From positions 186,001 to 250,000 of the forward strand of contig NZ_JAAIKO010000001.1 in assembly GCF_016107395.1 (NCBI RefSeq): a DNA stretch of 64,000 nt, written 5' to 3'. The notes under the pieces were generated by a model. It was not told the origin of the DNA. It did no database searches and saw only the letters and a program-made list of their open reading frames with translations. Position numbers and translations under genes: made by a program. Positions 6,221-19,368 of this stretch are shown piece after piece (positions within the stretch are counted from its first letter, which is position 1; each line of letters starts with the position of its first letter). This DNA comes from Streptomyces fildesensis (GTDB lineage Bacteria; Actinomycetota; Actinomycetes; Streptomycetales; Streptomycetaceae).

Positions 6221-7381
6221 GTGCCCCAACGCCCCGTTCCGCTGGACGAGTACCCCGTGCACCAGATCGCCCGATCCATGCGCCATGTCGCCAGCGGTGA
6301 CCGCAACGCCTACGACCGGTCGATCTTCCAGGTCTTCGACCACGAGGGCCGGGCGCTGCTCATCACCGGCCTCGGCGTCTACCCGAACCTCGGCGTCACC
6401 GACGCCTACGCGACGCTGCTCCAGGGCGACCGGCTCATCGCCGTCAGAGCCTCGGACGCGCTCGGCGAGGACCGGATGCGGCAGCAGGTCGGACCGCTGC
6501 GGATCGAGGTCCAGGAACCGCTCAAACGGCTGCGGCTGGTGTGCGAACCGCAGGAACCGGACCCGGACGGCGCGGACCCGGACGGCGACGAGGCTTCGAG
6601 CCTCTCCTTCGACCTGGTCTGGGAGGCGGACTTCCCGGCCGTCGAGGAGCCGCACCACATCCAGTACACCGGCGACCGGCTCTTCCTCGAAGCCAACCGG
6701 TTCTGCCAGGCCGGCAGCTGCCACGGCGTGATCCGCGCCGGCGGCCAGGAGATCACCGTGGAACGCGGCCGCTTCACCGCCACCCGCGACCGCAGCTGGG
6801 GCGTCCGCCCCATCCCCGGCGAGGCGCCCGGCCGGGCCGCCGAGGAGTTCCGTGCCGAGGGCTTCCACTGGCTGTGGATCCCGATCCGCTTCGAGGACCG
6901 CTTCGTCATGGTGATCCTCCAGGAGGACGCCGACGGCTACCGCACCCTCGACAGCGCCGTCCTCGTACACCCCGCGGACGCCGGCCGCCCCGACGAGCAA
7001 CTCGGGCGCGCCCACGTCGACATCACGTACCGCTCCGGCAGCCGGCACCCCGAGTCGGCCGTCATCCACCTCACCGGAGCCGACCGCAAGCCGATCGAGA
7101 TCCACGTCGAACTGCTGGGCGGCAGCCCGCTCGCGGTCGGCGCCGGCTACCCGCCGGCCGACGACTGGCAGCACGGCGAGTGGAAGGGCCGCGGCTGGCT
7201 GGACCGCCGCACGTACGACCTGGCGGACCCGGCGGGCCTGGGCCTGGCGGCGTACGGCGTCATCGACCACGCGGCCCGCTTCACCTGGGACGGCGCCACC
7301 GGCTACGGCATCTTCGAGCACGGCAGCTTCGGGCGGCACGACCCGAGCGGGTTCACCGGCTTCGACTCGGTGGCGCCGTAA
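6221..7381 (+). CDS. Conserved AttH/CrtC lipocalin-like protein (DUF7064/7065 type)
   Basis: The GTG start at 6221 follows an extended GAGGAGGAGGAG purine run. The 386-residue product has no signal peptide or membrane segment. It contains two beta-rich halves with Trp/Gly/Asp-rich stretches (RDRSWGVRPIP about residue 190, HGEWKGRGWLDRRTYDL near 325) reminiscent of the hydroxyneurosporene-synthase/AttH fold. In actinobacteria such proteins occur beside acyl-CoA and steroid catabolic genes and APH-like phosphotransferases, as here. No reaction can be assigned. The upstream inverted repeat suggests TetR-type control with the next gene. Confidence 0.75.
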   Translation: MPQRPVPLDEYPVHQIARSMRHVASGDRNAYDRSIFQVFDHEGRALLITGLGVYPNLGVTDAYATLLQGDRLIAVRASDALGEDRMRQQVGPLRIEVQEPLKRLRLVCEPQEPDPDGADPDGDEASSLSFDLVWEADFPAVEEPHHIQYTGDRLFLEANRFCQAGSCHGVIRAGGQEITVERGRFTATRDRSWGVRPIPGEAPGRAAEEFRAEGFHWLWIPIRFEDRFVMVILQEDADGYRTLDSAVLVHPADAGRPDEQLGRAHVDITYRSGSRHPESAVIHLTGADRKPIEIHVELLGGSPLAVGAGYPPADDWQHGEWKGRGWLDRRTYDLADPAGLGLAAYGVIDHAARFTWDGATGYGIFEHGSFGRHDPSGFTGFDSVAP

Positions 7382-7497
7382 CCCTGTCAGCCCACGGCTC
7401 GTAGCCCTTTGGAGCAGCCCCGCGTACTCCCCGCCGATTCCGGCAAGGAATGGGGAGTAGCCGAAGCCCTGTCCGGCAAGGCCCGCAAGGAGGACCC

Positions 7498-8616
7498 GTG
7501 TCGAGCCCGACCCCACCCCCCGCACCGCACATGACCACCAGCACCCGCGATCCCCAGCTCCTCCGGCAGCGGCTCGACGCCTGGCTGCACGCCCGCGAAC
7601 CCGGCGCGCACACCCGCACCTTCCACGTCCCGTCCTCCAACGGCATGTCCAGCGAGACCGTTCTGTTCGACCTCGCGGTGCCGCACCGGGCCGGCACCGC
7701 CCGCCAGCAGCTGCGCCCCTGCGTCCTGCGGCTGGCCGCGGACCCCGACGCGTACGCGGCCTTCCCCGTGTACGACATGGAGCGCCAGTACCGCACCATC
7801 CAGGCCGTCGCCCAGCACAGCAAGACCCCGCTCCCGGCCCTGCTGTGGCTGGAGACCGACCCGGACCCGCTCGGCGCGCCGTTCTTCGTCATGGAACGCG
7901 TCGAGGGCCGCGTACCGCCCGACGTCATGCCGTACACCTACGGCGACAATTGGCTCTACGAAGCCGAACCCGCCGACCGCGAGCACCTCCAGCGCTCCAC
8001 CGTCGACGTCCTGGCCGAGCTGCACACCGTCCCGGTGGAACCGGTCGCGTTCCTGGCCGGGCCCTCCGGCGACGCCCTGCGCGACCATGTGACGGCCCAA
8101 CGCGAGTACTACCACTGGGTCGTCGACGGCCGCCCCCGCTCCCCGCTCATCGAGCGCGCCTTCGACCGGCTCGACGAACTGTGGCCGGACGACCCCGGCC
8201 CCACCGTCCTGAGCTGGGGCGACGCCCGCATCGGCAACATCCTCTACGCGGGCTTCGACCCTGTCGCCGTCCTCGACTGGGAGATGGCCGCCCTCGGCCC
8301 CCGTGAGCTCGACCTCGGCTGGATGATCTACCTCCACCGCTTCTTCCAGGACCTGACGGAACAGACCGGCTACCCGGGCCTCCCCGGCTTCATGACCCGC
8401 GACGCCATCGCCGACCGCTACCGCGACGCCACCGGCCACACCCCCCGCGACCTGGACTTCCACACCCTGTACGCGGCCCTCCGGCACGCCAACGTCATGC
8501 TCCGCATCGGCTACCGCCAGATCCACTTCGGCGAACGCCCCCTCCCCAGCGACCCGGACGACCTGATCATGCACCGCACCTCCCTGGAGGCGATGATCGA
8601 GAACCGCTACTGGTGA
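7498..8616 (+). CDS. APH-type phosphotransferase family protein (ACAD10/11 N-terminal-like)
   Basis: GTG 7498 follows AAGGAGG at ideal spacing; a longer frame from 7450 lacks a ribosome site. The product is 372 residues. Kinase-fold motifs are clear: the catalytic loop LSWGDARIGNIL (about residues 238-249, with Trp in place of the usual His) and the DFG-equivalent VLDWEMAALG (about 258-267). This subgroup resembles the phosphotransferase domain that accompanies acyl-CoA dehydrogenases and acts on hydroxyacyl or other small alcohol substrates, rather than a true aminoglycoside-resistance enzyme. It probably forms an operon with the lipocalin-like gene 117 bases upstream. A 10-bp hairpin terminator follows. 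Confidence 0.85.
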   Translation: MSSPTPPPAPHMTTSTRDPQLLRQRLDAWLHAREPGAHTRTFHVPSSNGMSSETVLFDLAVPHRAGTARQQLRPCVLRLAADPDAYAAFPVYDMERQYRTIQAVAQHSKTPLPALLWLETDPDPLGAPFFVMERVEGRVPPDVMPYTYGDNWLYEAEPADREHLQRSTVDVLAELHTVPVEPVAFLAGPSGDALRDHVTAQREYYHWVVDGRPRSPLIERAFDRLDELWPDDPGPTVLSWGDARIGNILYAGFDPVAVLDWEMAALGPRELDLGWMIYLHRFFQDLTEQTGYPGLPGFMTRDAIADRYRDATGHTPRDLDFHTLYAALRHANVMLRIGYRQIHFGERPLPSDPDDLIMHRTSLEAMIENRYW

Positions 8617-8622
8617 CGGTCA

Positions 8623-8648
8623 CGGGGGCCCGTCCGGCCGGGCCCCCG
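8623..8648 (+). terminator. Hairpin terminator after the phosphotransferase gene
   Basis: A perfect 10-bp GC stem pairs 8623-8632 with 8639-8648 around a six-base loop, starting seven bases after the stop codon. No U-tract is present, as is common in Streptomyces. Confidence 0.75.
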
Positions 8649-8731
8649 CGACCCGCTCGCCGGCAGTGACATGAACGTGACGTATTAGGCACAGACCCTC
8701 CCTCGATCCCCCCGCGTGACTTGGGTAACGT

Positions 8732-8748
8732 CGTACGTCCTACGTACG
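8732..8748. promoter_or_regulatory. Candidate operator, CGTACGT-N3-ACGTACG
   Basis: A perfect 7-bp inverted repeat with a three-base centre lies 70 bases before the lipoprotein start. Its symmetry and promoter-proximal position suggest a dimeric repressor site for the 8818-10550 pair. Confidence 0.35.
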
Positions 8749-8817
8749 GGGACCACGGGGACGTACAGCGAGCTGACCCGACGGTGCCCACCCACCGACC
8801 GGGAGCCCTTCACTTTT

Positions 8818-9483
8818 ATGCGAGCCCCCACAGCGCTCACCGCCGCCGCCCTCGCGACGGCGACCGCCCTGCTGCTCACCGCCTGCGGCGGGGGCGGATC
8901 CGACGGCACGTCCGACACGATCGACGGCGTCCCGACGACCGCACCGTCCACCGCCGCGACCACTGCCGCGCCGACCGCCGCCCCGTTGACGATCGACCCG
9001 AGCCTGGCACTACCCGCCGACCTGAAGCTGAATTTCGACTGGCCGAGGCCGTCGGACCACACGCAGGCGGTCGCATTGGCCGCCACGGCGAACTTCATGC
9101 AGTCACTGGTGCACGGAGTCGTGAAGCAGAGCGTGACGAAGAGCGGCCTGGCCAATTACGCGACGGACAGCGCGCTCGTGTACGGCAAGAGCTATGTCCA
9201 GCGCCATGTGGACGCCAAGAGCACGCTCACCGGCACCGACCACTACTACCGTCCCGTCATCAAGGTCGCGGCCAACAAGACTTCCGCCGAGGTCACCTTC
9301 TGCAACAACCAGGCCAAGCTGTACAGCAAGGCGATCCCGACCGGAAAGGTCGCCGTCACCCCGGAGAACAATGAGAGCTACAGGTTCTACGACATCGTCC
9401 TGATCAAGTTCAGGCCCAACGTCGATCTGTGGCAGGCGGCATCCATCGAAGTGAAGGAGAGTGCCCTGCAGTGCAAGCAATAG
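8818..9483 (+). CDS. Lipoprotein of unknown function
   Basis: ATG 8818 gives a 221-residue protein with a lipoprotein signal peptide ending LLLTAC (lipidated Cys23). A Ser/Thr/Ala-rich linker of about 30 residues follows. The globular part of about 150 residues has a pattern of short helix plus beta strands (FMQSLVHGVVKQS, then YYRPVIKVAANKTSAEVTFCNN) that is NTF2-like in appearance. The C-terminal Cys could pair with the Cys of the TFCNN segment. The frame upstream to 8716 is open, but only the ATG yields the signal sequence. It overlaps the next secreted protein gene by 13 bases, so the two are probably translated together and act outside the membrane. Confidence 0.75.
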   Translation: MRAPTALTAAALATATALLLTACGGGGSDGTSDTIDGVPTTAPSTAATTAAPTAAPLTIDPSLALPADLKLNFDWPRPSDHTQAVALAATANFMQSLVHGVVKQSVTKSGLANYATDSALVYGKSYVQRHVDAKSTLTGTDHYYRPVIKVAANKTSAEVTFCNNQAKLYSKAIPTGKVAVTPENNESYRFYDIVLIKFRPNVDLWQAASIEVKESALQCKQ

Positions 9484-10550
9484 GTGGCTCGATACCGCTG
9501 CGCCGGGCGCTGGCCCTCGCTGCCGTCACCGTCGTTTCCGCGGCGGGAACGAGCTACGCCAACGACACGATTCCCATTCCGCCGAAGACACATGTGTCGG
9601 GTGGCAACGACACCCGCAACCTCAACGCCGCCGCCGGATACTCGGTGGTTCCCGTGACACCCGGCGCCACCGACCCCGGCCGCAAGCGGATCGCCTCGGT
9701 CGATACGTCCTGGACGCCGCCGCCTTGCTGGTTCGGGCCCAAGTACAGCGCCCAGCAGTTCAAGGACGAGTACACCAAGAGCTACAAGGAGCAGTCCCCC
9801 AACGTCCACGGCAGCTTCTCCACCGCCATGGGCATGGACCTCGCGCACTACCAGGACGGCTACGACTACCCCGGCGTCAAGGGCTACAAGGACTTCAACA
9901 TCGAGCAGGAGGGCAAGGGCCAGTGGTGGGCCGTGTCCACCAACCCCGCCGCCAGCGCGTTCGACCAGATGTCGTGCAACGACCAGAATCCGCTGTGGGT
10001 GCCGAACGGCGAGCGGCCGCCGGGCGCGACGAGGCACGTCATCACCCCGGAGATGCTCTCCAAACTCGCCTTCGCGAGCACGCGTCTCCCGGGCGTGACC
10101 ATCACCATGAGCCCGACGACAACGCAGACGGTCAACCTGCCGACGTGGGTGTGGCTGCGGGAGAAGTACACGCCGGTGAAGGTCCGCGCGTCCGTGAACC
10201 TCGGCGGCGGCCAGGAGATCTGGGCGGAGACCACCGCGCAGGCGAGCAGTGTGCGGATCGAGCCCGGTACGTCCGATGCCACCGTGTTCCCCGCTTCGGG
10301 TGAGTGCCCGATCGCCCCGGACGGCAAGGTGGGCGCCGCGTACGCCAGGGGAGCGACCGGCAATCCGCCCTGCGGCGTCACGTATCTCCGTTCGACGGAG
10401 CACTCCGGGGCGTACCAGCTCAATGTCACCGCGACGTGGAAGGTCAGTTGGGTCGGCTCCGACGGCGGTGTGCCGACCGGGCTGCCCAACGGCGTCATCA
10501 ACGAGCCGAAGGCCGTCACCGTCCGCGAGATCCAGAGCGTCGTCCGCTGA
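9471..10550 (+). CDS. Secreted protein of unknown function, coupled to the lipoprotein
   Basis: GTG 9471 lies inside the end of the preceding gene and follows AAGGAGA by ten bases, giving a 359-residue product. The N-terminus is a Sec signal peptide (RRALALAAVTVVSAAGTSYA). The mature part contains PPPCWFGPKYS, several Trp-rich stretches (KGQWWAVSTN, LPTWVWLREKYTP) and four or five Cys that may form disulfides. No catalytic motif was recognised. The tight overlap with the lipoprotein gene suggests an extracellular two-protein unit. Confidence 0.75.
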   Translation: MQAIGGSIPLRRALALAAVTVVSAAGTSYANDTIPIPPKTHVSGGNDTRNLNAAAGYSVVPVTPGATDPGRKRIASVDTSWTPPPCWFGPKYSAQQFKDEYTKSYKEQSPNVHGSFSTAMGMDLAHYQDGYDYPGVKGYKDFNIEQEGKGQWWAVSTNPAASAFDQMSCNDQNPLWVPNGERPPGATRHVITPEMLSKLAFASTRLPGVTITMSPTTTQTVNLPTWVWLREKYTPVKVRASVNLGGGQEIWAETTAQASSVRIEPGTSDATVFPASGECPIAPDGKVGAAYARGATGNPPCGVTYLRSTEHSGAYQLNVTATWKVSWVGSDGGVPTGLPNGVINEPKAVTVREIQSVVR

Positions 10551-10651
10551 TCGTCCGCCCCGCCGCCACCCACCGCCGTGCCGCAACCGCAAGCAGACCT
10601 ATCCGCCTGTATGGGATCATCCGCGCATTGGGAACGACGGGTGGGAGATCC

Positions 10652-12256
10652 ATGAGCAACGTACGGGTGCGGCGGGACGCGGTGGTGGGTGTCGCGTTGG
10701 TCATCGCGCTGGGGGCGGCGGGGTGCGGGGGCGGGGACTCGAAGGCCGCGGACGACAAGCCCGCGGCTACGGCCTCCGTGACAGGCAGCACGCCGCCGGC
10801 CGGCGCGCCGGGCGCGCTGCCCGGGTCGCTGACCGGGCAGAAGCTGAGCTGGCGGCGGTGCCCGGCGCCGAGTGTGGCGCAGGGCACGGACGGCAAGGCG
10901 CCCGGGAGCGAATGGCAGTGCTCGACGCTCAAGGCGCCGCTGGACTACGCGAAGCCGGACGGGCCGACCATCGGTCTCGCGATGATCCGCGCCAAGGCCA
11001 CCGGCAGCGGCCGGATCGGGTCGCTGGTGTTCAACTTCGGCGGCCCCGGCGGGTCGGGCGTGGCCGCGCTGCCGTCGTTCGGGAAGGACTACGAGAAGCT
11101 GCGGTCGCGCTACGACCTGGTGAGCTTCGATCCGCGCGGCGTCGGCGAGAGCCAGGGCGTGAAGTGCCTGGACGACCGGGCCACGGACGTCTCGCGGCAG
11201 ATCGACGGGACCCCGGACACACCCGACGAGGTACAGGCGCAGCAGGCAGATCTGCGGAAGCTGGTCGCGGCCTGCGTGCAGAACTCGGGCGACGTGCTGC
11301 CGCACGTCGACACGATCAGTGCCGCCCGCGACATGGATCTGATGCGCCAGGTGCTGGGTGACAAACAGTTGCACTACTTCGGCATCTCATACGGCACGGA
11401 GCTCGGCGGCGTCTACGCCCATCTGTTCCCGGGCACGGTGGGCCGCGCGGTCCTCGACGGGGTGGTCGACCCGACGCTCGACCCGGAGCAGGCCGGCATC
11501 GGCCAGGCGAAGGGCTTCCAGCTCGCGCTGGACAACTACCTGACGGACTGCGCGAAGAACACCGCCAACTGCCCGGCCGGCCGCAGCCGGCAGGCCGGCG
11601 ACCAGTGGATCTCCGCGTTCCTGGCGAAGCTCGACGGGAAGCCGCTGCCGACCGACGACGGCCGCAAGGTCACCCAGACCATCGCGACGAACGGGATCGC
11701 CGCCACGCTGTACTCCAAGGACGACTGGAAGTACCTGACCATGGCGCTCAAGGAGGCCAAGGCGACGGGCAGCGGCAATCTGCTGCTCGCCTTCGCCGAC
11801 TCGTTCGCCGGCCGGGACCAGAACGGCCGGTACAACAACCTGATGCCGGCCAACACGGCGGTCAACTGCGCCGACGCCAAGCAGCGTTACACCCAGGAGC
11901 AGGTGCGCGAGAAGCTGCCCGCGTTCCGTCAGGCCTCCGCCATCTTCGGCGAGTTCCTGGCCTGGAGCCTCCCGGCCTGCACCGGCTGGCCGGTACCGGG
12001 CAACTGGCAGACGCCTGACGTCAGCGCCCCGGGCGCGGCGCCGATGCTCGTCATCGGCAACACCGGCGACCCGGCCACGCCGTACGAGGGCGCCGGGAAG
12101 ATGGCAGCCGGGCTCGGCCCGGACGTCGGGATCGAGATCACCTACAAGGGCGAGGGCCACGGCGCGTACAACAGCGGCAACACCTGCATGACGGAGACCG
12201 TCAACGCCTACCTGCTGGAGGGAACGGTCCCCGCGAAGGGCACGACCTGCTCCTGA
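10652..12256 (+). CDS. Lipid-anchored S33-family tripeptidyl aminopeptidase-like hydrolase
   Basis: ATG 10652 gives 534 residues; an upstream in-frame extension from 10304 lacks secretion logic and overlaps the previous gene. The signal peptide ends LGAAGC (Cys25), so the enzyme is probably membrane tethered. The alpha/beta-hydrolase signatures are an oxyanion motif GGPGGSG near residue 130, nucleophile elbow GISYG with Ser246, acid in GNTGDPATP (about Asp472) and His503 in GEGHGAYN. The C-terminal Cys-containing cap matches the Streptomyces Slp/Tap peptidase group, which trims N-terminal tripeptides from secreted proteins. A very stable bidirectional terminator follows. Confidence 0.9.
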   Translation: MSNVRVRRDAVVGVALVIALGAAGCGGGDSKAADDKPAATASVTGSTPPAGAPGALPGSLTGQKLSWRRCPAPSVAQGTDGKAPGSEWQCSTLKAPLDYAKPDGPTIGLAMIRAKATGSGRIGSLVFNFGGPGGSGVAALPSFGKDYEKLRSRYDLVSFDPRGVGESQGVKCLDDRATDVSRQIDGTPDTPDEVQAQQADLRKLVAACVQNSGDVLPHVDTISAARDMDLMRQVLGDKQLHYFGISYGTELGGVYAHLFPGTVGRAVLDGVVDPTLDPEQAGIGQAKGFQLALDNYLTDCAKNTANCPAGRSRQAGDQWISAFLAKLDGKPLPTDDGRKVTQTIATNGIAATLYSKDDWKYLTMALKEAKATGSGNLLLAFADSFAGRDQNGRYNNLMPANTAVNCADAKQRYTQEQVREKLPAFRQASAIFGEFLAWSLPACTGWPVPGNWQTPDVSAPGAAPMLVIGNTGDPATPYEGAGKMAAGLGPDVGIEITYKGEGHGAYNSGNTCMTETVNAYLLEGTVPAKGTTCS

Positions 12257-12265
12257 TCACGCACG

Positions 12266-12303
12266 TGAGGGCCCGCACACCGTTTCCGGTGTGCGGGCCC
12301 TCA
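12266..12303. terminator. Bidirectional hairpin terminator between convergent genes
   Basis: A perfect 17-bp stem pairs 12266-12282 with 12287-12303 around the loop TTTC. It serves the S33 hydrolase gene from the left and moeZ from the right. Confidence 0.9.
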
Positions 12304-12327
12304 ACATATGCGCGACCAGCGATACCG

Positions 12328-13506
12328 CTAGTAGACCGGCTTGTGCGGCTCGACCGTGTGTACCCAGCCGATGACGCCGCCACCGACGTGCACCGCGTCC
12401 GAGAAGCCCGCGGACTTCAGGACGGCGAGGACTTCCGCGGAGCGGACGCCCGTCTTGCAGTGCAGGACGATGCGCTTGTCCTGGGGCAGGTTCTGCAGGG
12501 CGGTGCCCATCAGGAACTCGCCCTTGGGGATGAGCTTGGCGCCCGGGATGGAGACGATCTCGTACTCGTTCGGCTCGCGGACATCGATGATCTCGATGTT
12601 CTCGCCGTCGTCGATCCACTCCTTGAGCTGCTTCGGCGTGATCGTCGAACCCGCGGCGGCCTCCTGGGCCTCCTCGGAGACGACGCCGCAGAAGGCCTCG
12701 TAGTCGATCAGCTCGGTGACGGTCGGGTTCTCACCGCAGACCGCGCACTCCGGGTCCTTGCGGACCTTGACCTGGCGGTAGGTCATCTCCAGCGCGTCGT
12801 AGATCATCAGACGGCCGACCAGCGGGTCGCCGATACCGGCGAGCAGCTTGATCGCCTCGGTGACCTGGATCGACCCGATGGACGCGCAGAGCACGCCCAG
12901 CACGCCGCCCTCGGCGCAGGAGGGGACCATGCCGGGGGGCGGGGGCTCCGGGTAGAGGCAGCGGTAGCACGGGCCGTGCTCGCTCCAGAAGACGGACGCC
13001 TGCCCGTCGAAGCGGTAGATCGAGCCCCAGACGTAGGGCTTGTCCAGAAGCACGCACGCGTCGTTGACCAGGTAGCGGGTCGCGAAGTTGTCCGTGCCGT
13101 CGACGATCAGGTCGTACTGGGAGAAGATCTCCATGACGTTCTCGGCCTCGAGGCGCTCCTCGTGGAGAACGACATTCACGTACGGGTTGATGCCGAGGAC
13201 GGAATCGCGCGCGGACTGGGCCTTGGAACGGCCGATGTCCGCCTGGCTGTGGATGATCTGGCGCTGCAGGTTCGACTCGTCGACCTCGTCGAACTCCACG
13301 ATGCCGAGCGTGCCGACACCGGCGGCGGCCAGGTACATCAGGGCCGGCGAGCCGAGGCCGCCGGCGCCGACACACAGCACCTTGGCGTTCTTCAGCCGCT
13401 TCTGTCCGTCCATCCCCACATCGGGGATGATCAGGTGGCGCGAGTACCTGCGGACCTCGTCGACGGTGAGCTCGGCAGCCGGCTCGACCAGGGGTGGCAG
13501 CGACAC
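12328..13506 (-). CDS. moeZ: MoeZ/MoeB-type adenylyltransferase-sulfurtransferase
   Basis: GTG 13506 with GGAG five bases upstream gives the usual 392-residue product; the longer frame to 13839 is not conserved-looking. The N-terminal ThiF/MoeB domain has the ATP-binding GAGGLGSP loop at about residue 47 and zinc Cys pairs in CYRCLYP (about 178) and CAVCGENP (about 252). The rhodanese domain carries the sulfur-bearing Cys in HCKTGVRS (about 348). The enzyme activates ubiquitin-like sulfur carriers (MoaD, ThiS, CysO-type and secondary-metabolite carriers) by adenylation and thiocarboxylation. It is transcribed toward the shared terminator at 12266-12303. Confidence 0.95.
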   Translation of the reverse strand: MSLPPLVEPAAELTVDEVRRYSRHLIIPDVGMDGQKRLKNAKVLCVGAGGLGSPALMYLAAAGVGTLGIVEFDEVDESNLQRQIIHSQADIGRSKAQSARDSVLGINPYVNVVLHEERLEAENVMEIFSQYDLIVDGTDNFATRYLVNDACVLLDKPYVWGSIYRFDGQASVFWSEHGPCYRCLYPEPPPPGMVPSCAEGGVLGVLCASIGSIQVTEAIKLLAGIGDPLVGRLMIYDALEMTYRQVKVRKDPECAVCGENPTVTELIDYEAFCGVVSEEAQEAAAGSTITPKQLKEWIDDGENIEIIDVREPNEYEIVSIPGAKLIPKGEFLMGTALQNLPQDKRIVLHCKTGVRSAEVLAVLKSAGFSDAVHVGGGVIGWVHTVEPHKPVY

Positions 13507-13616
13507 GGGGACTCCGGATCGGTAGGCATACGGGTGTACGGGTGGTTCTCTCCGTAACACTGCCACGCCGGTCTTCATTCCGAGACACCCGGTCCGAGGA
13601 GCGAGACCGAAGGGGA

Positions 13617-14462
13617 TCAGATACTGGGCGGCGGCTGCTTTCGTAACGTTCGCACCGATTCGTCCCAGTAGCCGGCCAGCCCCTCCCACGGGTCGGTGCC
13701 GTCCCGGTCGGTGCGGTCCGTGAAGCAGACGGTGGCGGCGCCCTGCCAGCGGGCGATCCGCATCGCCGTCACCAGATGCGACCGCGGCACTCCGTGGACG
13801 AGGTGCGCGAAGCGCTCCGGCGGGTACGCGGCCGTCCACTGCGGGGCCTCGGACCAGCGGTACCGGGTCCAGGGGCCGGAGAACGTCACCAGCTGGTCGG
13901 CGATCTCGGCGTACCCGGGATACGGATGCATGCCGTGCCCCAGCACGATGTGCCCGTCACCACCGTCGCCACTATCACTGTCAGCGCTGTCCCCGTCGTC
14001 CCCCGCCAGCAGTGCCCGCAGCGTCGTCGTCACCCGGCGGCACTCGTTCAGCGCGGAACGCTCCGTCGGCGCGCGGTCCAGGTAGAAGCCGTCCACCCGG
14101 TACCAGTCCAGGTAGTGGGAGGCGTCCGAGACGAGCGCGCCGAACGGCCGGGCGCCGAGCCCGGCGTCCAGATGACCGAGGACCGGCACCCCGCTCTCCC
14201 GGAGCCGCGCCACCGCCTCCGTGTACAGCGGGTCGGGCCGGGTGCCGGGGCCGCGCGCCACGTTCAGCACCACCCAGTGCAACGGGGTTCCCGGGCGGGC
14301 GAGTTCACCCCACTCGGCCGGTGCGACCAGCGGGTGCGCGTTCACCGGGACGCCGAAGCCGAGCCGGTCGGAACGGGCCTGGCCGCCCGCTCCCGGGCCG
14401 GCCCCGCCGGAGCGGTCGCGCAGCCCCGCACCCCAGAAGTGCGGCGGCGTCAGACGCGACAT
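13617..14462 (-). CDS. Spherulation-specific family 4 / PelA-like TIM-barrel glycosidase
   Basis: ATG 14462 overlaps the end of the epimerase gene by 13 bases. The 281-residue protein has the spherulin-4 pattern: an early barrel strand (GFGVPVNAHPL), LHWVVLNVARGPG, VLGHLDAGLGARP and the acidic core YRVDGFYLDRAP at about residues 121-132. This family is related to GH114/GH166 endo-alpha-1,4-galactosaminidases such as fungal Ega3 and the PelA hydrolase domain. No signal peptide is visible, so it may act in the cytosol or leave by another route. An acidic low-complexity insert (DDGDSADSDSGDGGDG) interrupts the barrel near residue 160. It is the last gene of the Pel-like operon. Confidence 0.8.
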   Translation of the reverse strand: MSRLTPPHFWGAGLRDRSGGAGPGAGGQARSDRLGFGVPVNAHPLVAPAEWGELARPGTPLHWVVLNVARGPGTRPDPLYTEAVARLRESGVPVLGHLDAGLGARPFGALVSDASHYLDWYRVDGFYLDRAPTERSALNECRRVTTTLRALLAGDDGDSADSDSGDGGDGHIVLGHGMHPYPGYAEIADQLVTFSGPWTRYRWSEAPQWTAAYPPERFAHLVHGVPRSHLVTAMRIARWQGAATVCFTDRTDRDGTDPWEGLAGYWDESVRTLRKQPPPSI

Positions 14463-15361
14463 GCCGCCTCCATCCAGACGTCGGCCAGCGATTCCTCGAG
14501 GCCGATGCGGGGCCGCCAGCCCAGCCGGTCACGGGCCGTCCGCACATCCGCCTGCTGCCAGATGCCGCAGCCGTCGGGGTACGGGGGCGGGCCGGGCGCG
14601 ACCTGCGGCTCGTCCAGCTCGTGGAGGGTGCCGTCGTAGCCCGCGACATGCGCGAGCCCGGCCGCCATGTCGCGCATCCGTACGGCCCGGCCGGAGCCGA
14701 TGTTCACCAGGCCCTGCGCGGCCGACAGCGACGCCGCGTGCACCGCCCGCGAGACGTCACGGACGTCGATGAAGTCGCGCTGCACGGCGAGCCCGCCGAG
14801 CTTCAGCTCGCCGTCCCCGCTCTGCATCGCCCGGCGCAGCGCCTCGGCCACCCGCCCCAGCGGTGAACTCGTCGGCGTGCCGGGGCCGACCGGGCTGAAC
14901 ACCCGCAGCACCACCGCGTCGAGACCCGAGCCCAGCACCAGCTCGGACGCGGCGAGCTTGCTCACCCCGTACGGGCCGCCCGGCCGCGGCACCGCGTCCT
15001 CGGCGGTGGACGCGCCGACCGGCGAAGGACCGTATTCGGCGGCGCAGCCCACCTGGACCAGGCGCGCGCCGGTGCTGCTGCGCCGCATCGCCTCGCACAC
15101 GGTCGCCACCGCCACCGTGTTGTGCCGGGTCAGGTCCCGGGCCCCGCCGCGGGTCGCGCCCGCGCAGTTGACGACGACGCCCGGGTGCACGGCGTCCAGG
15201 AACCGCGCCAGCGCTCCCGGCGCCCCGCTCGCCAGGTCGAACCGCACATCGGCGTCGTCGCTGCGCCCCAGCGCGGTCAGCTGTACGGCGGGGTCGGCGA
15301 GCAGCCGTTCGGCCACGTGCCGGCCGAGGAATCCATCGGCTCCGAGCAGCAGCACTCTCAT
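14450..15361 (-). CDS. NAD-dependent nucleotide-sugar epimerase/dehydratase (SDR)
   Basis: ATG 15361 gives 303 residues. The extended-SDR signatures are the N-terminal dinucleotide loop LLGADGFLG, CAAEYGP (in place of the classical S-x-YG region) and catalytic Tyr/Lys in GGPYGVSKLAAS (about residue 133). RDFIDVRDVS follows, a motif typical of UDP-sugar 4-epimerases and dTDP-sugar reductases. In its operon with a PelF-like transferase a role like PelX/Gne, interconverting UDP-GlcNAc and UDP-GalNAc, is an attractive inference but the substrate cannot be read from sequence. It lies 79 bases after the membrane-protein gene and overlaps the spherulin-4 gene. Confidence 0.85.
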   Translation of the reverse strand: MRVLLLGADGFLGRHVAERLLADPAVQLTALGRSDDADVRFDLASGAPGALARFLDAVHPGVVVNCAGATRGGARDLTRHNTVAVATVCEAMRRSSTGARLVQVGCAAEYGPSPVGASTAEDAVPRPGGPYGVSKLAASELVLGSGLDAVVLRVFSPVGPGTPTSSPLGRVAEALRRAMQSGDGELKLGGLAVQRDFIDVRDVSRAVHAASLSAAQGLVNIGSGRAVRMRDMAAGLAHVAGYDGTLHELDEPQVAPGPPPYPDGCGIWQQADVRTARDRLGWRPRIGLEESLADVWMEAACRV

Positions 15362-15440
15362 CGGCCGACACCCCCCACCCGGTGTCCTTGCCGGTGCGCT
15401 GTCCCGCGCGGTGGGCGGAGCGAGGTCGTTCGGTGCGTGA

Positions 15441-17438
15441 TCAACGTTTCTCCTGGTTGGTGTTGCGGAGGTCTGTCGTACGGGGGTGGGTGGCGGCGGG
15501 GGTGCCCGTGCGGGCACCGGTGCCGTGCGCCGAGGCCCGGGTGAGGGCGCGGAAGGCATGCACTACGAGGACTGTGGCGGCGCAGCCGCAGGCCAGGACG
15601 GGTATCGCCGCCGGGCCGAGCCACTCGACCGGGGCCGAGACGGCGGCCAGGCCCGGCACGTGGTGCAGTACGGCTGCGCCGAGCGCGGCTCCCTCGGCCG
15701 CGGCCGGCGCGCCGGTCCCCCACGCGGCCGCCCTCGTGAAGCCGTGCACCGCGAGCAGCCGGGCGGTGAACAGCAGCATCCCGAGGGCGCCCGCCCCGGC
15801 GACACCGGCGGGACCGGCCAGCGCGGCGGCGGCCCACAGGAGGGCGAGCAACACCGCGAGATACAGCACGAGGGTGCCGGCGAGCAGCGGGCGCACCCGG
15901 GCGGCGAACTCCCCGAGCCCGCGGCTCGGCGTGAGTTCGGCCCGCGCCCGCAGCGCGAACCGGTGGGCGCACCACGCGGCGGGCGCCAGGGTGAGGGCCA
16001 GCGCCACGAACGGGCCGCCGGCGGGCGGGTCGAACGGCGCGCCGAGCAGGCTCGTCAGCAGCGGACCACCGCACAGCGCGAACGCCAGCAGCCACCCGCC
16101 CGAGAGCGCCCCGCCGGCGCTCGCGGTACGCAGCGGGCCGCGTCGCAGCGCCGCCCAGGTGGCCAGCGCGACGAGCAGGGCGATCACCGCGCCGACGGCG
16201 GGCGACCGCACCACGAACGCGGCCGCCGCGGCGCAGCCCGCGCCGGGCACCACATGCAGCAGCCCGACCCGTACCGGTCCGACCCGCGCCGCCACCCGCT
16301 GCCCGCCGGCCCGCTCCCCCGCGGCGCCGTGCGGGACGCGGGCGTACAACTCGTCCGCGAGCGAGAACACGTCCCGGTGCCGGAACCGTCCCGCCACCCG
16401 GTCGGTGACACCGTGCGCCTCCAGCCCTGCGGCGATCTCCAGCACATCCACCGCCCCGGCGCACAACTCCTCATGCCGGTGCATCACCCCACGCACCGGA
16501 TCAGCAGGCCCCCGCCGCCGCGCCACCGAGGCCCTCCCGGCGGGTTCGGAGTCGCGATCCGGCAGGACACCATCCCGGGCGCCCGGACCCGCCGCCGAGG
16601 CGAGACCCCCGCCCTCACCGACCGGCAGGATCAGCTCGGGCTGCAACTCCGACAGCAGGACCCGGTCGTCCGCAGCCGCCTCCACCGGGCGGTACGAACC
16701 CCCGCCAACGACGGGCAACTCCGGCGCGTGCGACCCACCGGTATCCCGGCCACTCGGACCCGCCGCCGAGGCGGGAACCCCACCGCCACCGACCGCCAGA
16801 ACCGGCCCCGGCCGCGCCCCCGAGAACAACACCCCGCCCTCCACAGCCGGCTCCGCCAGAGGCGTGCGGCCGTCCGTTCCCGGGCCGTAGCCCAGGGCCG
16901 CCACGACCCGCGCACGGATGTCGCCCGCCGCGTCGAGTCCGCGGCTGGGCGCCTCCATGAGCGGCTCCGCCCCGGAGGCGGCTTCGGCGGCGGCTTCGTG
17001 TTCCGGCCACGCGATGGTGTCGTCCGCGTTCACGCGGTCCGGGGCCGCGGCGGGATCCGCCTCGTCGGAAGGACCCACGCAGCCGCTCAGGCCCTCGGCT
17101 GCGGCTTCGGCCGTCGCGATGCCGTCCTCCTGCTCCGGCTCCGGTTCGCGCTCCGGCTCGGACTCCGGGGCCGGAGCCGGGTCACCGGCCCGACCGCCGG
17201 CCGGGCGGTCGACGCCGTCGGTGCCGTCGGTGCCGTCGGTGCCGTCGGTGCCGTCGGTCAGGACCTCTTCCGCGGCGGTCGCGGAATCATCCACCGGGCC
17301 GGAGGCCGCCCGGCGGAAGGCCGGGGGGAGGAGGTCGGCGCCTGGGAAGGTCTCGTTGGGCGGGGTCGGGTCGGTGGGGACGTCGGAGAGGATGCGGGCG
17401 AGGAGGGCGGCCTGCGCGGAGCCTCGGGTCGCGGTCAT
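15441..17438 (-). CDS. Large membrane protein with disordered acidic N-terminal half, Pel-like operon
   Basis: ATG 17438 overlaps the stop of the glycosyltransferase gene by four bases (ATGA), so translation is coupled. Of 665 residues, about 1-315 are low-complexity acidic and Pro/Gly/Ala rich, with a TDG repeat near residue 60-75, Glu-Pro runs and repeats of a VGGGG-x-ASAAGP type. A conserved-looking helical segment follows (HRHEELCAGAVDVLEIAAGLEA is split here as HRHEELCAGAVDVLE and IAAGLEAHGVTD, about 318-345; then RHRDVFSLADELYARVP). About eight predicted membrane helices occupy 395-640. No family was recognised. It is too small and too poor in helices to be a clear PelG flippase, but it occupies the exporter position. 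Confidence 0.75.
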   Translation of the reverse strand: MTATRGSAQAALLARILSDVPTDPTPPNETFPGADLLPPAFRRAASGPVDDSATAAEEVLTDGTDGTDGTDGTDGVDRPAGGRAGDPAPAPESEPEREPEPEQEDGIATAEAAAEGLSGCVGPSDEADPAAAPDRVNADDTIAWPEHEAAAEAASGAEPLMEAPSRGLDAAGDIRARVVAALGYGPGTDGRTPLAEPAVEGGVLFSGARPGPVLAVGGGGVPASAAGPSGRDTGGSHAPELPVVGGGSYRPVEAAADDRVLLSELQPELILPVGEGGGLASAAGPGARDGVLPDRDSEPAGRASVARRRGPADPVRGVMHRHEELCAGAVDVLEIAAGLEAHGVTDRVAGRFRHRDVFSLADELYARVPHGAAGERAGGQRVAARVGPVRVGLLHVVPGAGCAAAAAFVVRSPAVGAVIALLVALATWAALRRGPLRTASAGGALSGGWLLAFALCGGPLLTSLLGAPFDPPAGGPFVALALTLAPAAWCAHRFALRARAELTPSRGLGEFAARVRPLLAGTLVLYLAVLLALLWAAAALAGPAGVAGAGALGMLLFTARLLAVHGFTRAAAWGTGAPAAAEGAALGAAVLHHVPGLAAVSAPVEWLGPAAIPVLACGCAATVLVVHAFRALTRASAHGTGARTGTPAATHPRTTDLRNTNQEKR
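17214..17258. repeat. Five tandem copies of GCCGTCGGT within the membrane-protein gene
   Basis: Five exact 9-bp units run head to tail and encode the Thr-Asp-Gly repeats of the disordered N-terminus on the minus strand. Because the unit is a multiple of three, copy-number change would alter length without breaking the frame. Confidence 0.9.
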
Positions 17439-19198
17439 GCGAGGTCACCTCCCGGGAACGGGAAGCCCGCGGGTTGCGGGCGGCGGGCCCAGGTGGGGGC
17501 GGGCAGCACGGGCGTGAGGCGGCCGGGGACATGGGCCTCGGCGGGCTCGGAGAACGGGCGCGGCACGCCGTCGGTGTCGAGCAGCGGCTCGCGGCGCACC
17601 GGACAGTGCGCGACGAGCTCCAGATAGATCTCGCGGAACGCGCCCACGCACCGCTCGACGGTGAAGAGTTCGAGCGCCCGCTCGCGCGCGGCGGCGCCGA
17701 GCCGGGCGGCGCGCTCGGGCTCGCGCAGCAGCGCGAGGCAGGCGTCGGCGAGCGCCTTGGGGTTGCGGGGCGGTACGACGAGCCCCGTGCCGCCGATGAC
17801 CTCGCGGACGGCGCCCACGTCGGTGGAGACCGTCGCGCGGCCGCAGAACATCGCCTCGACGAGGCTCAGCGGGAAGCCCTCGACGATGCTGGACAGCACG
17901 ACGACGTCACCGGAGGCGTACGCGTCGGCGAGCTGTGGTGCGCCGGGTGAGCCGATCTCCTCGAAGGTGACGGGGCTCTCGCCGACCGTCACCGCGTCCT
18001 GGGCCTCGTCGGGGAAGAGCTGGGCGGCCAGCGTGCGGCAGCCCGCCAGGTAGGAGTCGACGCCGCCGCGGACGTGCAGGATCCGGAGCCGTGCGCCCGG
18101 TTCCGCCGTGCGTATCGCGTCGAAGGCGTGCAGGAGCGCGATGAGGTCCTTGGCCGGGTCCGGGCGGCCGACCCAGGTGAGCGTGGGGTCGGTGTGCCCG
18201 CCCTGGACGTCCGCGCCGGCCGCTTCCGCGGCTTCGCCGGCGCGGGCGAAGCGGGCGGCCTCCATGCCCGGGTAGACGGTCCGCAGCCGGGAGCGGTCGG
18301 CGCCGCAGCGTTCCTGCCAGCGGCGGGCATGGGTGCTGCCCGGGGTGATCAGGGCCGCCTCGCGGTAGGACTCACCGGCGAGCAGCCGGTGGAACGCGGT
18401 GAGGAGCGCGCGGACTTCGGCGGAGAGGCCGGAGGCGCGGTGCGCGAGGAGCGCCTCGCGCAGCCGGACGCCGTACTCGGTGACCAGGAGCGGCGTTCCG
18501 AAGAACCGTTTGGCCAGCAGGCCGGGAAGGGTCGCGGGACCGCCGGAGACGGCGTGGCACAGATCGGCGGCGCCGAGCTCGTCCGGTTCGTACCAGGGCG
18601 CGGACAGCGGTCTCAGGGCGCGTTCCAGAAGTTCGGCGGCGGTGAGCAGGTCCGCCACGCCGACGGTGGCCAGCAGGGGTCGTACGCCGGGAGCGCGGCA
18701 GGCGTCCTCCAGGGCGCGCAGCGCGTGCTCGGACCGGAGCAACCCGGGCAGTCCGCCGTCCTCGTGGGCGAGTTCGGCCAGCCCGTACAGACCGGAGGCG
18801 AAACGGTCCGCCCGGGCACCTCCGTAGCCGTCGGCTCCCGCACCGGACACGCCGATGACGTCATCGGTGCGGCCCGCGGCGGATCCCTCGTCGCCGCCCG
18901 CCAGCGCGGCGGCCAGCTCCCGGTAGTGGTGCAGGAACCGGTGGCGGCGCGCCCGGCTGGCCGCCCGGCCGCGGCTGCCGTCGTCCTCCGGCGGCGCGCC
19001 CCACAGGCGCTCGCTGCGCACCCGCCGTACCTGCGACGGCAGTTCGACCCGTCCCCCGGCCTCCGTCCGCTCGGACCTGCTGAGCGCGTACACCTCGAAT
19101 TCGTGGCCCGGAAGCCCGCGCACGAGCCGGTCGCACCAGGCGCCACCTTCACCTCGTGCGTACGGGTAGCCACCCTCGGTGAGCAACGCGATGCGCAT
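17435..19198 (-). CDS. PelF-like GT4 glycosyltransferase (DUF3492 N-terminal domain)
   Basis: ATG 19198, preceded by the purine run GGAAGGGGGG, gives 587 residues; the frame is open back to 19402 but without a ribosome site. The N-terminus MRIALLTEGGYPYARGEGG, WCDRLVRGLPGHEF and the internal VTEYGVRLRE (about residue 237) are hallmarks of the DUF3492/PelF group. The GT4 donor-binding region shows the EX7E motif in SSIVEGFPLSLVEAM (about 430-444) and a final GTGLVVPP segment. PelF uses UDP-GalNAc to polymerise the Pel polysaccharide in Pseudomonas; here the same role is inferred from family and operon. It is the first gene of a four-gene operon. Confidence 0.88.
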   Translation of the reverse strand: MRIALLTEGGYPYARGEGGAWCDRLVRGLPGHEFEVYALSRSERTEAGGRVELPSQVRRVRSERLWGAPPEDDGSRGRAASRARRHRFLHHYRELAAALAGGDEGSAAGRTDDVIGVSGAGADGYGGARADRFASGLYGLAELAHEDGGLPGLLRSEHALRALEDACRAPGVRPLLATVGVADLLTAAELLERALRPLSAPWYEPDELGAADLCHAVSGGPATLPGLLAKRFFGTPLLVTEYGVRLREALLAHRASGLSAEVRALLTAFHRLLAGESYREAALITPGSTHARRWQERCGADRSRLRTVYPGMEAARFARAGEAAEAAGADVQGGHTDPTLTWVGRPDPAKDLIALLHAFDAIRTAEPGARLRILHVRGGVDSYLAGCRTLAAQLFPDEAQDAVTVGESPVTFEEIGSPGAPQLADAYASGDVVVLSSIVEGFPLSLVEAMFCGRATVSTDVGAVREVIGGTGLVVPPRNPKALADACLALLREPERAARLGAAARERALELFTVERCVGAFREIYLELVAHCPVRREPLLDTDGVPRPFSEPAEAHVPGRLTPVLPAPTWARRPQPAGFPFPGGDLA

Positions 19199-19356
19199 GT
19201 GTACGCCCCCCTTCCTTCGCCGGTCCGCCGGATGCATGGCCGGGAGGGCGGATACGTCTGCCCGGCGCGACGACGGTATGCCGGTACGACAGTGGCGCGA
19301 CGGACGGTTGTCCGCCGCGCCACCAGAAGGGGTGAACGGTCGTAACTTCTCGCACC

Positions 19357-19368
19357 ACAACGCGTTGT
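19357..19368. promoter_or_regulatory. Candidate operator, 12-bp palindrome ACAACGCGTTGT
   Basis: A perfect palindrome lies 159 bases upstream of the pelF-like start in the 270-base gap before the ABC operon. Its CG-centred symmetry resembles LacI-family operators. No other gene starts in this gap, so any control would be of the Pel-like operon. Confidence 0.35.

Follow-up and report, generated by a model that had tools for sequence, protein, structure and literature searches.

The closest described counterparts of the locus considered here are two kinds of polysaccharide gene cluster. One is the galactosaminogalactan (GAG) cluster of Aspergillus, which consists of uge3, gtb3, sph3, ega3 and agd3 and in which Sph3 is an endo-alpha-1,4-N-acetylgalactosaminidase; the same source reports agd3 operons in bacteria that also encode a glycosyltransferase and a membrane protein with multiple spans, as well as spherulin-4 genes in some Actinobacteria (excerpts of PMC7229062). 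The other is the Gram-positive pelDEADAFG operon, in which PelD is a receptor for cyclic di-GMP (excerpts of PMC7112168). Four minus-strand genes at 13617-19198 of a window of 64,000 nucleotides from Streptomyces fildesensis (assembly GCF_016107395.1, contig NZ_JAAIKO010000001.1, positions 186,001 to 250,000; "the window" is this whole stretch) share features with both kinds, and our data indicate that they are probably a repurposed GAG-type remnant and not a simple Pel system.

The first gene (GT; 17435-19198, ATG at 19198) encodes a PelF-like glycosyltransferase with DUF3492 (PF11997, 2.4e-33) and GT4 domains in Pfam and an intact EX7E motif, and it scores barely above the cut-off of the NCBIfam PelF model NF038011 (104 against 100 bits). 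It overlaps by 4 bases (17435-17438) the gene for a membrane protein (MEM; 15441-17438) with a long acidic N-terminal part, a conserved helical domain and about eight membrane helices, for which no Pfam or NCBIfam family was found at E<=0.1. A gap of 79 bases (15362-15440) separates the MEM stop from the start of an extended short-chain dehydrogenase/epimerase (SDR; 14450-15361; PF01370, 4.1e-35), which keeps Tyr131 and Lys135, has Cys106 where its paralogues have Ser and, despite its membership of the epimerase family, reaches only 36.9 bits against the galE model (cut-off 262.3). The last gene (SPH4; 13617-14462; PF12138, 9.1e-24) overlaps SDR by 13 bases (14450-14462) and encodes a Spherulin4 barrel of the GH135 fold without a signal peptide, in which the nucleophile is kept as Asp129 and the acid/base Glu is replaced by Ser195. 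An initial annotation had described these four minus-strand genes with the same overlaps and gap, and was exact to the base. Downstream lies moeZ (12328-13578, minus strand; NF005902, 757.7 bits, cut-off 647), encoding an adenylyltransferase/sulfurtransferase, which is a constant neighbour and follows SDR in 49 of 49 compared loci. These 49 were picked via matches to GT, to SDR or to a conserved leader element upstream of GT. Three further samples are used below, a named-genome set, a genus set and a set from the large genus g9, presumably Streptomyces, which overlap one another; the named set is the best 80 of 439 confirmed SPH4 relatives, a selection biased towards the type found in the window.

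Like the GAG cluster and the bacterial agd3 operons (excerpts of PMC7229062), the window locus combines genes for a glycosyltransferase, a multi-spanning membrane protein, an epimerase-type SDR and a spherulin-4 protein, and a paralogous cluster elsewhere in the genome, on contig C419, adds an Agd3-like protein and GH114. The window locus differs in having neither deacetylase nor GH114, in a GH135 barrel that has no acid/base Glu, in its Cys-type SDR, in the linkage to moeZ and in the leader element. With the pelDEADAFG operon (excerpts of PMC7112168) it has in common a PelF-type glycosyltransferase and an epimerase-type SDR, whereas a PelA hydrolase/deacetylase is absent, the SDR is a separate protein and PelG is not found in the genome by hidden Markov model (HMM). 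Since excerpts of PMC7229062 already report bacterial agd3 operons and spherulin-4 genes, the canonical kind is known, and what is new is the branch found in the window. No papers on this branch were found in the open-licence literature searched, and the papers on SCO5178-SCO5183 that were looked into do not concern the GT, MEM, SDR or SPH4 genes.

The search for PelG (PF16933) gave zero matches across the whole genome with a positive Thermotoga control, and membership in a pel operon proper was rejected on this result. Across a sample of the class, PelG matches occurred in 10 of 296 genomes, four of them above the cut-off; of three matches inspected, two (L201, L202) are long generic MOP-type proteins and the third (L205) is a frame unlike a membrane protein. 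The initial annotation had read the locus as a Pel-like, reduced galactosaminoglycan system, and that assignment survives in part: the DUF3492 glycosyltransferase and the barrel, whose fold is nearest to Sph3, agree with it, but the closest system is the GAG-type cluster, present as a full set on C419, and not pelDEAFG. Its statement that neither PelG nor a deacetylase is recognisable is correct for PelG in the genome and for deacetylase domains in the four window proteins (Pfam scan); an Agd3-like protein and GH114 are encoded in the same genome on another contig.

PelG belongs to the MOP superfamily, and the fold of MEM may be nearest to the flippases of this superfamily, which weakens the argument from a missing PelG. 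The model of the C-terminal half of MEM (predicted local distance difference test, pLDDT, 84; about eight membrane helices) gave nothing significant in Foldseek (best E 0.43), whereas in the VIA comparison the top 16 rows were all MOP transporters (MATE, MurJ, WzxE), the best with Z 11.9 over 185 residues, a value in the chance range for helical models. Helical bundles can reach such a Z by chance, so the kinship is suggestive. Across 58 MEM members the Pfam signal consisted of scattered weak matches, with none to PelG or MOP families. Of 58 usable MEM rows from named genomes, 51 entered alignment A2, together with the window and six paralogues. The MEM of the paralogue shows 11 membrane-helix-like hydropathy peaks and the window type eight. 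A short tandem 9-base repeat at 17218-17260 encodes a Thr-Asp-Gly run within the acidic N-terminal region of MEM.

Paralogous clusters and the catalytic residues of SPH4 and SDR

The second DUF3492 gene and the second Spherulin4 gene of the genome lie 5 kb apart on C419, within a complete GAG-type cluster (L035; G000:C419:26501-46500, 6991-16931) in the order Agd3-like secreted protein, GT, MEM, SDR, NTP (nucleoside triphosphate) transferase, SDR, SPH4 and a lipoprotein-like GH114, the last being the sole PF03537 match of the genome. The first six genes are common to all 16 loci of this type, and SPH4 and GH114 are each present in 15. Members of the Agd3-like profile match Agd3_CE (12 of 16) and CBM87 (7 of 16) weakly, with best E values of 0.0012 and 0.0064, and no PDB relative was found with the single protein (best E 0.12) or with the 16-row profile; the assignment to Agd3 is thus faint in sequence and consistent with the neighbourhood. 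A third, shorter cluster type (Agd3-GT-MEM-SPH4) occurs in eight fetched g9 loci (L239, L242-L248), with GH114 within three of the stretches.

The SPH4 model (pLDDT 82) superposes on Sph3 (PDB 5c5g and 5d6t) with Z 26.0 and an rmsd of 2.2 over 227 aligned residues. The next structure matches have Z 15.7, GH191 entries 13.7-14.6 and PelA (9cgy) 13.0, so that the barrels of GH191, GH114 and PelA/GH166 are related to SPH4 yet clearly more distant than Sph3. The initial annotation had pointed to the fold that spherulin-4 proteins share with GH114/GH166 enzymes such as PelA. With Sph3 the window protein shares the fold and the nucleophile Asp; it differs in Ser at the position of Glu222, and no signal peptide or anchor was found on it. 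The numbering of the Sph3 chain (254 residues, the last being 304) puts the Glu of VVFEATY at 222 and the Asp of GIFFDE at 166, which is the catalytic Asp; Asp166 was used here. The pair is printed as Asp196/Glu222 in excerpts of PMC12054363.

The two residues have had different fates in the window type. Glu is found at the Glu222 position in none of the 80 named, 12 genus and 10 g9 copies (the second fragment of a split match, L266, stands outside the last ten). The named copies have Ser (47), Ala (17), Thr (6), Cys (5), Arg (2), Asn (2) or His (1) instead, and one genus copy has Asp. The nucleophile is kept in the window and in 74/80 named, 11/12 genus and 6/10 g9 copies. Both residues are kept in the SPH4 of locus 2 (14/14, and 3/3 further copies), of the third cluster type, locus 3 (8/8), and of the outgroup (4/4). 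This pattern suggests that SPH4 of the window type probably binds rather than cuts. Most bacterial SPH4 genes with intact residues (L035, L058, L239-L254) also lack a signal peptide, which is odd for a hydrolase of a secreted polymer, and a hydrophobic N-terminus was seen in one of 12 other-type SPH4 genes examined (the second copy in L249).

The SDR shows a comparable substitution. Four residues ahead of the Tyr in its "EYG" motif, at the position presumed equivalent to the catalytic Ser/Thr (Ser124) of GalE, 79 of 80 named copies have Cys and 15 of 15 paralogues have Ser; Ser also occupies this position in genera g3, g4, g8, g10, g11, g14 and g15, and 5 of 19 genus rows are gapped at this column. 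The three Gly of GxxGxxG are kept in 80/80 and the Tyr and Lys of YxxxK in 79/80 named copies.

These substitutions bear directly on the possibility that the locus is an active reduced Pel or GAG system making a galactosamine-rich matrix polymer, in which SDR supplies UDP-GalNAc (uridine diphosphate N-acetylgalactosamine), GT polymerises it, MEM exports the chain and SPH4 cuts it. The narrowly passed PelF model, the kept EX7E motif, the GH135 fold and the co-conservation of the genes all fit such a system. We nevertheless regard it as improbable: the acid/base Glu is lost in every named copy, no deacetylase is present in the locus to give galactosamine, PelG is missing by HMM and SPH4 has no signal peptide, although the last point is equally true of most active paralogues examined. 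The reduced system proposed in the initial annotation is not simply a working one: SPH4 has no catalytic Glu and SDR no presumed catalytic Ser in almost every copy seen in lineages with the leader element, the exception being g8.

The leader element upstream of GT

The leader element lies on the minus strand and comprises a hairpin (19291-19324) with a 15-bp stem, an AACC loop and invariant GGAC/GTCC, a conserved TTCACCCCTT box (19327-19336; 90 of 92 upstream regions) and two promoter-like blocks, AACG-N16-GTTACG (19341-19366), that are near-invariant in alignment A5 of 87 sequences. The core is present in 90 of 92 upstream regions, the exceptions being L114 and L143, and in 64 of the 67 named loci with a GT match as well as in L149, which has no GT. 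It is a single copy in its own genome with up to three mismatches allowed; 65 of 121 family genomes contain precisely one copy each, and a reversed-pattern control gave 0. In a set of 87 distinct sequences, pairing of the stem amounts to 94.4% and double-sided cells number 55; these two values and the covariation score were reached by 0 of 500 shuffles, and slid versions of the stem had at most seven double-sided cells. The four inner pairs are invariant. The 212-nt leader has a folding z of -2.54, with 5 of 200 shuffles equally low. The Rfam comparison of the leader returned four weak matches (E 5.3-9), none near the gathering score, and the window held none at gathering.

The two blocks with their 16-base spacer look like a promoter of the extracytoplasmic function (ECF) type in either orientation, and in the forward reading the hairpin would lie close to the mRNA 5' end. 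On the plus strand, 19341-19366 reads CGTAAC-N16-CGTT, which points away from the operon and resembles the sigma-BldN consensus. Two other roles were considered and rejected. A coding extension of GT disagrees with a distance to the GT start that varies out of frame, with invariant third positions in the core and with a stop in 14 of 86 frames; and a conserved divergent gene as partner disagrees with the recurrence of one upstream neighbour in only 20 of 36 element-bearing loci, the neighbour in the window being a dpp-like ABC transporter.

Probable descent, gene losses and possible present-day function

The four genes are co-conserved among close relatives. The order GT-MEM-SDR-SPH4-MoeZ was found in 12 of 14 fetched window-type genus loci, one of the others being truncated by a contig end (L037) and one lacking SPH4 (L049), and in 66 of the 80 named relatives, with one more if a split GT match is counted. 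GT and/or MEM are missing in the remaining 13 named loci, of which 12 are shorter than 11.5 kb and one (L149) is full-length. A GT ortholog at >=68% identity is present in 34 of 35 genus genomes (none in G017), three of these being split or partial and one consisting of 65 residues at the edge of a contig. The Glu pair of EX7E is kept in 67/67 named, 43/43 genus and 15/15 paralogue rows. All 27 sampled g9 genomes contain a low-scoring DUF3492 gene of the window type by score class, its adjacency to moeZ being seen in the 12 that were fetched, and 12 of the 27 carry a high-scoring second copy that the other 15 lack. The window-type locus is thus more widespread than the canonical kind, and therefore cannot serve merely as a helper of the canonical cluster.

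A tree built from 47 GT rows unites all 22 of the window type in a single clade (100/100), which has a long stem and loci 2 and 3 as its sister group. L288 (genus g15) has a full cluster with intact catalytic residues and moeZ 2.5 kb downstream, and in a quick tree its GT branches as sister of the other 22 GTs linked to moeZ (SH-aLRT 99). L288 is also the exception among all window-type loci compared, which have no deacetylase. Reduced states are found in other genera: g3, g4, g11 and g14 have GT and a Ser-type SDR before moeZ (with MEM in all but L283) and neither SPH4 nor the element; g8 carries the element, and its moeZ-linked L274, like L288, keeps the SPH4 Glu; and L286 (g10) has only a Ser-type SDR and an SPH4 with Asp for Glu. 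The other element-bearing loci have a Cys-type SDR, and Glu in 0 of 27 SPH4 where that gene is retained. Four rows (L103, with a stop near its end, L120, L130 and L163) were left out at an intermediate stage of the comparisons.

We give a modest preference to the reading that the locus is a vertically inherited and partly dismantled cluster of the GAG/Pel type, which stood beside moeZ in an ancestor within the Streptomycetaceae. Of its two parts, this origin is held with high confidence and the following present-day function only tentatively. One ECF-type promoter would drive the operon through the leader hairpin; SDR would still handle a UDP-sugar; GT and MEM, where kept, would polymerise and flip a neutral, uncut glycan of the GalNAc/Gal type, to which, or to whose synthase, SPH4 would bind in place of cutting; and in lineages without GT and MEM the SDR would serve other glycans. 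Because GT and MEM are still under selection in most species, a neutral GalNAc/Gal-type glycan would be the likeliest product there.

Several observations weigh against this reading. The element is missing in L114, L143 and G070 and upstream of L285, although each of these retains the locus in whole or in part, and the hairpin statistics are uneven, since the number of pairs with double-sided change (five) was equalled in 76 of 500 shuffles and that of pair types in 171 of 500. L274 of g8 combines the element with intact SPH4 residues and with Ser in SDR. On the SDR+MoeZ tree the Ser/Cys change takes two steps because L269 (Cys) clusters with g8, a single step being found in only 4% of bootstrap trees, and the Glu change in SPH4 takes two steps too. 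The Agd3 label depends on weak Pfam matches with nil in the PDB, and the suggested kinship of MEM with MOP flippases on a Z in the chance range, with no significant Foldseek match. Finally, purifying selection on GT and MEM together with the kept EX7E would be compatible with a working polymer system.

Polymer making may, on the other hand, not be what keeps the locus, because GT, MEM and SPH4 have each been lost in some lineages and SDR is retained. GT is missing in five of the 49 compared loci, from five genera (L268, L273, L277, L285, L286), SPH4 in 19, and SDR in none. The presence of SDR in 49 of 49 is partly due to selection, given the matches by which these loci were picked. A family search free of that bias found SDR-1, the window-type SDR, as orthologs (>=61%) in 112 of 121 genomes; the misses are all of g2 (3/3) and g5 (4/4), one 76%-complete g3 genome and G032, in which contig breaks fall within the locus. 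Pairwise ratios of nonsynonymous to synonymous change (dN/dS), calculated for the window genes against four near relatives and for the paralogues against three, were 0.00-0.09 for SDR-1, 0.13-0.25 for GT, 0.17-0.34 for SPH4, 0.23-0.37 for MEM and 0.00-0.09 for MoeZ, as compared with 0.26-0.34 for the paralogous SDRb and 0.27-0.46 for SPH4-2. SDR-1 is accordingly the most constrained of the four genes, and is under tighter constraint than the paralogue that has the canonical Ser.

Such constraint, the losses of GT and SPH4, and L277, where GT is reduced to its first codons, in a short open reading frame that follows an intact element and whose stop runs into the start of SDR, are what would be expected if the locus were kept for the Cys-variant SDR, acting as an epimerase or related enzyme on another glycan or in a MoeZ-linked process, with GT, MEM and SPH4 dispensable and the leader a promoter or regulator of SDR or moeZ. 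We consider this rather unlikely, given that the count of 49 is partly a matter of selection, that GT, MEM and SDR stand together in most genera with GT intact, and that the SDR of L273 has acquired an insertion. It is also tempting to speculate on a rebuilt core-genome system, with the Cys-variant SDR indispensable, the non-cutting GH135 barrel as a chain-binding or regulatory subunit, a MEM cut down to about eight helices and the single-copy leader hairpin as a new class of cis-regulator, which would make an undescribed glycan or modified nucleotide sugar, possibly with sulfur transfer by MoeZ; this proposal, too, is doubtful. Plain decay of a dying copy carried along beside moeZ could account for the lost catalytic residues and the repeated gene losses, but is highly improbable, because dN/dS is well below 1 for all four genes, which shows that the locus is not decaying, and the window-type GT persists in all 27 sampled g9 genomes.

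With the reading of a partly dismantled cluster, the locus offers a readable history of a matrix-polymer cluster shared with fungi, which has been taken apart yet kept in a major antibiotic-producing family, and of which living intermediates remain: a full cluster near moeZ, an intact barrel, a barrel without Glu and forms without GT. It leads to the prediction of a conserved non-hydrolytic GH135 protein together with a conserved leader hairpin. Strains with both loci permit a side-by-side comparison of the canonical and the repurposed copy within a single cell. For GAG synthesis, the paralogous cluster may provide a non-pathogenic model in bacteria.

One SDR deserves separate mention. In the L273 protein (6840-8048) Ser stands in place of the Cys, and about 100 additional residues are inserted close to the C-terminus; its genome has no GT, MEM or SPH4.

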